Positions 9,394 to 21,472 of a stretch of 21,483 nt of DNA are shown here, in pieces. How positions within the stretch are numbered: the first letter of the stretch is position 1; each line of letters starts with the position of its first letter. A model generated the notes under the pieces. It saw nothing but the letters and a program-made list of their open reading frames with translations. It searched no databases and had not been told where the DNA came from. This DNA comes from a virus. Location: positions 1 to 21,483 of the IMG/VR virus record IMGVR_UViG_3300009285_000752; one strand, 5' to 3'. A program made the translations under genes and the position numbers.

Positions 9394-9596
9394 TGAATAA
9401 GTTGAAGGAGATTTACGCAGGACTTTTACTCATCTTTGCTCTTAGCTGGATACTACTGCATCTCATTTACATCGCTAAGTGGAAGAAAGTAGTTTTTGGC
9501 GAGAATAATAAGTGGATACTGCGAGCTGAGCTTGTTTTAGTAAGTTTAGCAGTCTTGCTAGGAATTGAACGCTTCGTAAAGGACTTAAAGGAATGA
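9393..9596 (+). CDS. Two-helix membrane protein, holin candidate
   Basis: 67 residues, GTG start inside the TAGTG overlap with the gene before. Two membrane segments: about 8-26 (YAGLLLIFALSWILLHLIYI) and about 43-60 (LRAELVLVSLAVLLGIERF), with a short basic loop (KWKKVVFGENNK) between and a charged C-terminus (KDLKE). Size and layout fit class II holins, which form membrane lesions that release lysis enzymes. No endolysin gene lies in the window. The next gene also has two helices, so the pair could be holin and antiholin; this is inferred only from topology. Confidence 0.65.
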   Translation: MNKLKEIYAGLLLIFALSWILLHLIYIAKWKKVVFGENNKWILRAELVLVSLAVLLGIERFVKDLKE

Positions 9597-9766
9597 AAAG
9601 ATATACTATGGAAAGATACAGAATGCAGTTAATCTTTGGTCTTCCTATACTAGCATTTGCTATTGCTGCCATGCTGTGGACTGAAATTGATAGAGCATTT
9701 CTTGGCGGAATTATAGGCGGCTTCACTACTTACTTCTTCAGGAAAAGCCCACCAAAGGAGGAATAA
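9593..9766 (+). CDS. Second small two-helix membrane protein
   Basis: 57 residues, found by direct reading. ATG 9593 overlaps the previous stop (ATGA), with AAAGGA just upstream as ribosome binding site. It opens MKRYTMERYRMQ and has a first membrane segment LIFGLPILAFAIAAMLW (about 13-29). A Gly-rich second segment FLGGIIGGFTTYFF (about 36-49) and a basic-acidic tail (RKSPPKEE) follow. The stop directly abuts the ATG at 9767, and the GGAGG of that next gene lies inside this gene's last codons. It closes the only hole in this part of the operon. Holin or antiholin-like; partner of the preceding gene by inference. Confidence 0.7.
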   Translation: MKRYTMERYRMQLIFGLPILAFAIAAMLWTEIDRAFLGGIIGGFTTYFFRKSPPKEE

Positions 9767-13974: not shown

Positions 13975-14799
13975 TCAACTTTTAATTAAAGTAATAAGGT
14001 CTTCATCATCAACAGTCTCCAGTCCATGAGCTCTGTTTATTCCTGCGTAGCCCCCGCCTCTAGCGAACCATTTATTTCTTTCTACTAGCTCAAATCCTAT
14101 CCTAAGACAATCTCGCTCAGCCCTATCCCCAAGTTTAACTCTTTTTCCTGCTTCCATCCTATCCTTGATGATAATGGTCATAGTTCCTCCTACAAGCAGG
14201 GAGTTGTAGAATTTCTTATAGATTTTTTCCATCTTCTGGAAGTAAATAAAGTCATTCAAGTTGCCTATATTGTCAGGATGCTTAGTATAGAGTGTTGCTG
14301 ACCCGTAGCCTAAATTAGTTGAGGTTTTATCCATCTTACCGTCAGCGTCGCCTTTCTTCTTCAAAAGTGAGCCGTATGGCGGCGAGAAAATAAAGTGATT
14401 AAATAAGCCAGGAGGCAGCGGAAGTATTTTGCTGCAGTCTCCTGGTATCAGCATAGCCATCTCATCAGCTTTAGGAACAGTTCTACTTATACCGTTAATG
14501 TTCTGCTCAATTATTCCTTGGTAGTGCTCTTCTAGCTCAATCATAATGACTGGACGCCCAATTGTGAGTGCTACAAGGATTGTGCCGGTGCCGGCAAATG
14601 GGTCAAGGATTGTCTCACCTTCTTCGCTAACGAATTCCACTAGTGCTTTTATCATCAGCATGTGGGCTTTGGCAATGTGCTCCCCAGGGTCAGAAAAGGG
14701 GAATAGAAGTGCCCTGATGTTTCTGTCGCTAGGAAACAGAACTCTGCCAAACTCATCACGAGGAAAGTTCTCTGCGAATAGCTTACCTATCTTATTCAA
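13975..14799 (-). CDS. DNA methyltransferase, amino-group (N4-cytosine or N6-adenine)
   Basis: 274 residues. The SAM-binding motif I is LDPFAGTGT (66-73), motif II ends in IELE (88), GDCSKIL (120-126) fits motif III, and the catalytic motif IV is SPPYG (139-143). SPPY favours N4-cytosine over the DPPY seen in most N6-adenine enzymes, but does not settle it. The order, with motif I before IV and a motif X-like helix (HIAKAHMLMIKALVEF) in front, fits a solitary phage enzyme. No restriction endonuclease is beside it. The start is TTG 14799, overlapping the previous TGA (TTGA), with AAGG at the right distance. Likely protects the phage genome from host restriction. Confidence 0.9.
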   Translation of the reverse strand: MNKIGKLFAENFPRDEFGRVLFPSDRNIRALLFPFSDPGEHIAKAHMLMIKALVEFVSEEGETILDPFAGTGTILVALTIGRPVIMIELEEHYQGIIEQNINGISRTVPKADEMAMLIPGDCSKILPLPPGLFNHFIFSPPYGSLLKKKGDADGKMDKTSTNLGYGSATLYTKHPDNIGNLNDFIYFQKMEKIYKKFYNSLLVGGTMTIIIKDRMEAGKRVKLGDRAERDCLRIGFELVERNKWFARGGGYAGINRAHGLETVDDEDLITLIKS

Positions 14800-19303: not shown

Positions 19304-19426
19304 TCATTCACACTCCCAGTCTTGCTTTGATATCTTACACTCGTAGGTTATCCGCTTAGAAGTCTCTGTTTTCATAAGCCCCAAGCAATCGCTGCAGCCT
19401 TTACATTTCAGGCGTTTCCGTTTCAT
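19304..19426 (-). CDS. Very small Cys-rich protein
   Basis: 40 residues, found by direct reading. KCKGCSDCLGL carries three closely spaced Cys, with CKISKQDWEC near the end, a likely metal knuckle. It opens very basic (MKRKRLK). AAGGA abuts the ATG, which is too close for good initiation, so the start may be wrong or expression low. It is the first gene downstream of the structured region in the direction of the - block. Moderate confidence, based on Cys spacing and operon fit. Confidence 0.45.
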   Translation of the reverse strand: MKRKRLKCKGCSDCLGLMKTETSKRITYECKISKQDWECE

Positions 19427-19468
19427 TCCTTTTTGGACAGACACTATTTTAATATGTCCTTTCTATTC

Positions 19469-19986
19469 AGGTTAGGGGAGGGCTGGCTCAGAGCGGATAG
19501 TATATTCCTTTTGCCTTGCTGTCCTCACCCTAACCTTTACCTGAGCCTACTGGATTACCAACTTCCTATCAAGGAGTCAGCGCCATTACCAATCAAGGTA
19601 ATGGCTACCACTCGGCTCAGGACTTACTGCCAGCCTTGACATTCAAGAGAACTAACGCTCTATATGCCCATTTTATTATTGCCCTTTTCAGGGTGGCTGG
19701 CAGTTCCTGCCCTCTACCTACCTGATGTAGCATACAAAGCAGGCTCACTCTTATGACGAATCTTGCCATTTAGTAGTATTCATCAGGTAAATAGTTGGCT
19801 TTGGGCAGGCTTGCTGGCTCGTTGCTAATTCACCTTCAGTTGAACTTACAGCCCGGCACGATAGTCGGATTACCACTCCACTCATCTGCCGCCGACACTC
19901 GGACATACTCTTCGTCATCTTGACTGGGAGAACACTTACGGCATAGCTTTCCCAGTAAGGATGGACTACTCCCTGGACACCAGCGA
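19469..19986. ncRNA. Candidate large structured noncoding RNA
   Basis: The gene-free stretch 19427-20014 contains a series of long perfect inverted repeats. H1: 19469-19477/19528-19536 (9 bp), continued by GAGG/CCTC. H2: 19540-19547/19614-19621 (8 bp), enclosing H3 19582-19590/19597-19605 (9 bp, 6-base loop). H4: 19626-19635/19695-19704 (10 bp). H5: 19706-19712/19803-19809 (7 bp), enclosing H6 19719-19727/19781-19789 (9 bp). H7: 19923-19929/19950-19956 (7 bp). A possible 7-bp closing stem is 19811-19817/19980-19986. GGCTCAG occurs twice (19485 and 19614) and both copies can pair with 19541-19547, a switch, pseudoknot or between-molecule contact. The strand is open: four end wobbles (H1, H7, closing stem, inner hairpin 19681-19694) favour +, while H6 extends by five pairs including two wobbles only on -. 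Length and complexity recall ROOL/GOLLD-type phage RNAs, but no family match can be claimed. Confidence 0.72.
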
Positions 19987-20014
19987 AGCTATTCAGTTGT
20001 TAAGATTCTCTGTC

Positions 20015-20179
20015 TTATCCTCTCCCTTTAATCTCACTTTCAATATCCGGGTCAAGCCTTTGGTAGTCGGTCTTATTGCTCATCAGTCTGTAAAACTGCC
20101 GAACTGCCGTCTCAATACTCCGCTCTAACTTTTCCCTAGCTTCCTGTTCCTTCTGTTTTGCTTTCTCCAAATCACTCAT
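20015..20179 (-). CDS. Small coiled-coil protein
   Basis: 54 residues, found by direct reading. GGAG lies six bases before ATG 20179. The product is one charged helix (LEKAKQKEQEAREKLERSIE then TAVRQFYRLMSNKTDYQRLD). It lies 33 bases downstream of the putative OB-like gene and immediately before the structured RNA region. Its clear binding site and clean frame make it a real gene. Function unknown; perhaps an accessory of the preceding DNA-binding candidate. Confidence 0.68.
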   Translation of the reverse strand: MSDLEKAKQKEQEAREKLERSIETAVRQFYRLMSNKTDYQRLDPDIESEIKGRG

Positions 20180-21025: not shown

Positions 21026-21436
21026 TTAGAGACGATTGCCGTATTCTTGCTTTTCTTCACGCTTTATAAACTGGCAATTCATACAAAGCGTTTGGTAGCC
21101 GGTTGGATAATTTCGTTTTCTGAGACTACTATAATTTCTATTAGAGTCGTTCCTTCGTAAAGTCCTTTCTTTATATCCTTTCCCATCTATGTGGTCTACA
21201 CTTAGCGCTCGTATGTCAGTAAAACCGCACTTTACACAAGCGAGCTTCCCGTTCCCGTAGTGCGTTAAGACCGCAATCTTCGCACGAACTTTAGAAGTTT
21301 TTGACGCAGCATACTTACGACTCTTCCTTATTTCTTGCTCTTCAATAGATAAGCGTGGCGCAAGCGAGTCCCAGAAGTCCTTTTCTTCCTCTGTTATCTC
21401 ACTCTTTTTAATCCTGATGATGTCATATTTACCCAT
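21026..21436 (-). CDS. HNH homing-type endonuclease (leaderless transcript likely)
   Basis: 136 residues from ATG 21436. The zinc pair CVKC, SVDHIDG (HNH His) and LCMNCQFIKR match the paralogue at 3-308; the shared end GYQTLCMNCQFIKR is identical. The N-terminal 60 residues are helical and basic (SIEEQEIRKSRKYAASKTSK), a likely DNA-binding part. A start at 21472 is wrong because it would be the TTG of the promoter -35. The A of ATG 21436 lies seven bases after the TATAAT of that promoter, about where transcription should begin, and there is no ribosome binding site; the message is probably leaderless. The gene lies between two copies of the same promoter, which fits insertion or duplication by homing. 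Confidence 0.82.
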   Translation of the reverse strand: MGKYDIIRIKKSEITEEEKDFWDSLAPRLSIEEQEIRKSRKYAASKTSKVRAKIAVLTHYGNGKLACVKCGFTDIRALSVDHIDGKGYKERTLRRNDSNRNYSSLRKRNYPTGYQTLCMNCQFIKREEKQEYGNRL

Positions 21437-21442
21437 TAAATA

Positions 21443-21472
21443 ATTATACCACGAAGAGCCGGCAATAGTCAA
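21443..21472 (-). promoter_or_regulatory. Sigma70-like promoter P2 of the HNH gene
   Basis: On the - strand TTGACT (21472-21467), an 18-base spacer, and TATAAT (21448-21443), preceded by AC as in P1. The spacer ends CTTCGTGG exactly as in P1. The predicted start of transcription falls on or next to the HNH ATG. Confidence 0.8.

Follow-up and report, generated by a model that had tools for sequence, protein, structure and literature searches.

A modular structured RNA in the replication operon of an uncultured phage recurs among unrelated phages

The 21,483-base stretch analysed here, the window, is the whole of IMG/VR record IMGVR_UViG_3300009285_000752, which is classed as linear, and a gap of 588 bases within it (19427-20014) almost certainly holds a conserved structured RNA. 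The RNA occupies 535 nt of the minus strand (19469-20003, delimited by fold z-scores, homologues and module coordinates), lies between two co-directional operon genes of a bacterial virus that has not been cultured, and consists of a leader followed by module M1, hairpin S2 and modules M2, M3 and M4. Computation establishes that it is conserved and occurs in unrelated phages, and fixes its strand, its extent, the order of its modules and their base pairing. As the best overall explanation, on which we stand evenly poised, we propose a phage RNA of a class absent from Rfam that would be processed from its operon and serve as a stable structural RNA.

The structural operon of the window runs rightward and the replication operon leftward, with the gap inside the latter. 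Upstream of the RNA is a 54-aa ORF (20015-20179, minus strand) that stops ~25 nt ahead of the M1 stem; downstream is a 40-aa ORF (ATGAAACGG..., 19304-19426, minus strand) whose start codon, read from the sequence, falls 42 nt past M4. No promoter or terminator signal in the window rose above chance, and no intrinsic terminator (a GC-rich stem followed by a T run) was found, in keeping with an earlier note that had judged the region unlike a terminator. The same operon encodes, upstream of the RNA, a 148-aa HNH endonuclease homologue (21026-21472, minus strand; phrog_2255, E 7e-9). A 274-aa protein at 13975-14799 (minus strand) matches DNA methyltransferases over only ~residues 41-102 and is perhaps a split or unusual methylase. 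ARAGORN reported no tRNA in the window.

The earlier note, made from the letters alone, had described the gap as holding a candidate ornate phage RNA of ~520 nt, perhaps of a new class, in a region with no convincing reading frame, and had named a coding frame conserved across the region as one finding that would speak against it. None of the six frames of the gap exceeds 82 codons (longest stop-free runs of 26-82 codons, 5-17 stops per frame), no ORF in it is shared with a relative phage, and no conserved open frame emerged. The perfect stems reported there were verified (AGGTTAGGG/CCCTAACCT, CCTGAGCC/GGCTCAGG, ACTGCCAGCC/GGCTGGCAGT and GCCATTACC/GGTAATGGC), and the structure does exceed chance, with fold z-scores against dinucleotide shuffles of -6.74 on the plus strand and -6.00 on the minus strand and 0 of 100 shuffles folding as well. 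The estimated length was nearly right. The strand, which according to the note wobble pairs do not settle, is the minus strand, since relatives fix both strand and extent. Among 47 loci examined, the nearest ORF of at least 100 aa lies on the RNA's strand upstream in 42/45 and downstream in 37/42, and UUGG/CCGA variants of the M1 pseudoknot require a G-U pair that is present on the RNA strand only, which identifies the sense strand.

Homologues proved decisive for these assignments. Searching IMG/VR with the DNA polymerase and neighbouring proteins returned a single close relative, IMGVR_UViG_3300009285_000433 (41,629 bp), the one match of the upstream 223-aa and downstream 257-aa genes. Gene order is the same and most proteins are 77-96% identical; those flanking the RNA are 77-90% identical, whereas the RNA is alike in its module motifs only. 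Because only these short motifs of the relative's gap match the window, the RNA evolves much faster than its neighbours. The gap was read by joining the contig ends, that is, by taking as circular a contig whose record is classed as linear. This relative (G001; L002:8673-9175 plus L003:1-1600) carries an expanded array of ~1.5 kb with duplicated parts of M1 and M2; motifs such as AGCCAGCAAGCCTGCCC are likewise present in duplicate. The array also contains a small ORF, and a hairpin resembling GACAAGAGCYAGACAAAGACGAGATAAGTCTGGC occurs in it three times. Across 84,980 bacterial and archaeal genomes, AGCCAGCAAGCCTGCCC occurs in 44 stretches, none with adjoining modules, and we regard these as chance matches.

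Exact motif scans covering 2.9 million viral contigs extended the family far beyond close relatives. The first match, L012, comes from a phage that is unrelated in other respects and packs the entire array into ~400 nt. The motif CCAGCCACCC..GAAA..GGGC retrieved L065, L072, L073 and L074, and the motif GCTGGTGTC-N40-69-CGAGCCAGC retrieved at least 47 distinct copies judged to be members by leader, loop, downstream motifs and non-coding setting; a second, independent motif, AGCTACCCGAAAGGGC, added ~15 more. The modules recur in more than 50 IMG/VR phage fragments besides the window and its close relative, a total that is a lower bound; these are metagenomic homologues of the sort that the earlier note had called for. 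Loci L008, L009 and L011 were judged chance matches, and L234 and L235 are left out of the count. Short members, with M1 alone or M1 and M2, are frequent.

Among cellular genomes, one of the class Dehalococcoidia, matched by the M2 model R2 described below, contains an 11-kb phage contig with M1, M2, M3 and M4 in order (M1 54.4 bits, E 6.7e-16) together with tape-measure and tail genes. This hints at hosts in Chloroflexota, with the caveat that binning may mislead. Four weak M1 matches in Chloroflexota genomes lack the UCGG/CCGA pair and were rejected. A search, run without a positive control, of 348 Bacillota, 299 Pseudomonadota and 194 Woesearchaeota-phylum genomes gave no member. A match in Serratia phage KNP4 (E 0.04) fails the M1 model and is attributed to chance, and blastn against named phages and plasmids returned nothing convincing. 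The excluded L234, whose genome belongs to the same taxonomic order as the Dehalococcoidia one, has an isolated M2-like hairpin at ~1495-1570 (GAGCCAGCC...GGCTGGCTC) near an integrase-like gene, which could be an attachment-site relic.

The RNA of the window begins with an unpaired leader conserved among homologues, UUAACAACUGAAUAGC (19988-20003, minus strand), which has stops in all three frames (TAA, TGA and TAG). The leader motif precedes M1 in 12/55 loci, and three-frame stops are found in 17/55 leaders before M1 versus 54/471 control post-stop sites. Such stop-rich leaders suggest a need to prevent ribosomes from entering the RNA, whichever mechanism holds.

Module M1 (19809-19990, minus strand) is closed by an outer stem of AGCUUCGCUGG (19980-19990) and CCAGCAAGC (19809-19817) that encloses a pseudoknot. 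Across the family, M1 is a GCUGG/CCAGC stem with a covarying outer part, inside which lie UGUC, a short P2 stem and the pseudoknot (A)UCGG/CCGA. The search pattern fixes GCUGG/CCAGC, so that only the outer pairs and the pseudoknot count as evidence for M1. Outer-stem pairs 1-4 covary (p from <1e-4 to 0.013); the pseudoknot is present by complementarity in 27/29 copies; and the pair beside UCGG/CCGA, a site located through the sequence AUCGG alone, is Watson-Crick in 26/36 copies versus 14.6 in shuffled sets (p<1e-4). In the window the putative pseudoknot joins AUCGU (19858-19862) to ACGA (19819-19822), a compensated version of AUCGG/CCGA within the GCUGG/CCAGC stem. The window module is atypical: it is strongly enlarged, by ~100 nt relative to the usual size, and for this reason the M1 model R1 scores it weakly, at 15.5 bits (E 0.057).

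Between M1 and M2 lies hairpin S2, CUGCCC...GGGCAG (19707-19808, minus strand), identified through homologues; it is common to the window, L012 and G001 and was unseen in most other members. Module M2 (19626-19704, minus strand) has a 10-bp stem, ACUGCCAGCC/GGCUGGCAGU, around a GAAA-capped hairpin, ACCCUGAAAAGGGC (19681-19694). The family form is a CCAGCY/RGCUGG stem that encloses ACCCGAAAGGG and a second hairpin, with ACU closing the module. The Y-R pair is Watson-Crick in 32/35 copies versus 20.3 in shuffled sets, and over the entire module 92.0% of cells are paired versus 85.8% when shuffled, with a covariation score of 0.187 versus 0.088 that is lost when partners are slid. The window carries both the GAAA-type hairpin and the covarying Y-R stem, and its M2 scores 34.8 bits with R2, a model in whose training set this copy was included.

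Module M3 (19540-19621, minus strand) is a stem, CCUGAGCC-GAG...AGUA-GGCUCAGG, with an inner hairpin, GCCAUUACC/GGUAAUGGC. Its family form, CCUGAGCC-GAG...GUA-GGCUCAGG, mostly follows straight after M2, and copies are few for covariation. The pattern CTGAGCCGAG...GGCTCAG occurs in 8 loci including the window and in none of 530 kb of control loci. This arrangement bears on the GGCTCAG repeats at 19485 and 19614, both of which the earlier note had seen as potential partners of CTGAGCC at 19541, perhaps forming a switch. The elements at 19541 and 19614 do pair, as the two arms of M3 in those 8 loci; the copy at 19485 falls in M4, at a position for which the family has the consensus ACCAG-CCCC, and is probably a coincidence. 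The three-way pairing is not conserved, so that conservation lends the proposed switch no support.

Module M4 (19469-19536, minus strand) follows M3 in the window and adjoins the ribosome site of the next gene. It comprises AGGUUAGGG-UGA and a long stem closed by CCCUAACCU. In the family the stem ends in GGG-UG, and YNAG usually stands ahead of the 3' arm CCC; the 3' arm of the window is shifted 5 nt in register relative to this consensus. Four stem pairs vary in identity among 18 members while remaining Watson-Crick in 18/18, and in 17 aligned loci 96.1% of cells are paired versus 71.7% shuffled, with a covariation score of 0.667 versus 0.185. The AG directly before the 3' arm, which is outside the search pattern, is present in most members and in 0/14 stems from 204 control stretches. 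A Shine-Dalgarno-like sequence lies downstream of M4 in nearly all M4 loci. Covariation in M1, M2 and M4 beats both shuffled and slid controls. The shuffle tests ignore relatedness, although they cover a diverse set of loci and are matched by the slid controls; the model E-values are rough.

Covariance models provided a further line of evidence, R1 being built from 28 copies of M1 and R2 from 29 copies of M2, sets that were collected separately. R1 recovers copies outside its training set, ones that escaped the search pattern or were retrieved by another route, in G001 (38.7 bits, E 2.8e-9) and L012 (29.3 bits, E 2.6e-6). R2 matches 24 distinct places in RNA-bearing loci but nothing in 52 control loci that add up to a similar length; many of these matches are its own training rows, and the strength of the result comes from the adjacency of M1 and M2 and not from the count. 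M1 indeed adjoins M2 in loci retrieved via M2 alone (L202, L212, L223 and L228). With the two models, members can already be picked out of viral DNA that lacks annotation, which makes the real extent of the class measurable.

How the RNA acts is a matter on which we favour, tentatively, an excised molecule working in trans. It would be transcribed as part of the operon mRNA, be freed from that transcript by processing, and then persist as a stable RNA with a structural role, as a scaffold or as a particle working in trans, instead of switching a single gene. The neighbours of members are diverse (Sak4, exonuclease, Erf, RecT, methylases, HNH, capsid, terminase and tail chaperone), which makes a switch for one gene or pathway unlikely, and the fixed order of the four modules and their conserved junctions favour an excised particle. 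Against it, many short members that begin a few nt past a stop codon and end just ahead of a Shine-Dalgarno sequence suit a cis element equally well, and M1 of the window is enlarged and a weak match to R1.

A cis-acting intercistronic mRNA element, one that sets mRNA processing, 3'-end stability, translation restart or antitermination in phage operons, is a close rival, to which we give real weight while placing it below an even chance. It draws support from one-module forms and from the close packing of the RNA between a stop codon and a ribosome site: the M1 stem starts at most 40 nt from the stop codon upstream of it in 30/47 loci, M4 stands directly ahead of Shine-Dalgarno-like sequences in nearly all, and the flanking ORFs share its strand as counted above. 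The three-frame stops enriched in leaders would keep ribosomes off the structure, and the neighbours include both early and structural genes. However, several unrelated phages keep all four modules in one order with conserved junctions, which exceeds what a processing hairpin needs, and the window lacks any promoter or terminator signal above chance.

The occurrence of the same modules between unrelated genes of unrelated phages, the frame-independent leader stops and the duplicated modules of G001 could also reflect a mobile or selfish RNA cassette, or an intron relic, that spreads from phage to phage by inserting itself between their genes. We consider this improbable, as most loci have no recurrent adjoining recombinase or endonuclease gene and the window matches neither the group-II-D1D4-1 model nor any Rfam intron. 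Hairpins of the form GGGGUGAAAGUCCCC in a few members recall domain I of group II introns, which we take as a lead only. We see an even prospect that the RNA represents a previously undescribed, widespread class of large modular RNA of uncultured phages, probably including Chloroflexota phages, exchanged between unrelated phages, with four conserved domains that would either assemble into a particle with a defined tertiary or multimeric structure or bind one host factor in common. Its small natural variants (M1 alone, M1 and M2) and simple consensus make it possible to take out individual modules and to fold and test them.

The size, phage setting and multi-stem layout are similar to those of ROOL and GOLLD, and the earlier note had raised divergent membership of a known class; we find this very unlikely for ROOL, GOLLD and any other catalogued RNA. 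When the window and 14 member loci were scanned with Rfam 15 (4227 families), no family reached its gathering score, group I and group II introns, HEARO, riboswitches and GOLLD included, and nothing credible appeared at lax thresholds (E up to 10 in the window region) or in relatives. The ROOL model found nothing at E<=10 in the window and five relatives, a search without a positive control, in which the control genomes lacked ROOL too. GOLLD and ROOL often lie near tRNA islands, but ARAGORN found single tRNAs in 5 of 60 loci (4 distinct) and no island. Single M1 pattern matches do arise by chance in coding DNA, but these score at most 24 bits with R1 and lack M2, versus 30-64 bits for most members, and with the M1, M2 and M4 covariation controls also passed, the probability of a chance structure or artefact is negligible.

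Two kinds of small structure were observed in or beside the arrays. tRNA-like elements, at L231:1037-1124 (minus strand) and between M1 and M2 of L118 (reverse complement, ~9545-9615), have a D-arm, a T-arm (GGTTCAAATCC and GGTTCGAGTCC) and apparent 6-base anticodon loops; ARAGORN labels the L231 element 'tRNA-???' with a two-base anticodon, and both have the appearance of mimics, not of tRNAs that decode. Hairpins GGGGUGNAAGUCCCC, whose 7-base loops (UGAAAGU) are of the T-loop type, recur at L072:990-1015 and L002:8971 and in L076, L218 and L217.

Among known systems, GOLLD and ROOL resemble the M1-M4 RNA in size and setting only. ROOL (RF03087) is a large, multi-stem, pseudoknotted RNA of phages and prophages with no known function (PMC12286853); it shares the multi-stem layout, pseudoknot, phage setting and approximate length (ROOL env-120 is 659 nt), and differs in that its model finds no match here, whereas the present modules are separable, also occur alone and do not have tRNAs as regular neighbours. 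GOLLD, another large and ornate RNA of phages to which no function has been assigned (PMC12286853), has no Rfam match here and, at 800 nt, is far longer than most members. Both form structural particles in vitro (PMC12286853). An octameric RNA cage is the hallmark of ROOL. Group II introns are structured RNAs in similarly dense phage genomes (PMC12350094), with no intron match above cut-off in our loci. The ToxI pseudoknots of type III antitoxin RNAs are also pseudoknotted units in phage-related loci (PMC5772629); in contrast, the M1-M4 units are unlike each other, keep a fixed order, have no recurring downstream toxin family and match nothing in Rfam. Judged against Rfam 15 and the open-access literature, the M1-M4 RNA is probably a new class by sequence and structure, of a kind, the ornate large phage RNA, that is already known. 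Alongside GOLLD and ROOL, an additional class whose modules can be separated offers a tractable route to why dense phage genomes keep long RNAs.
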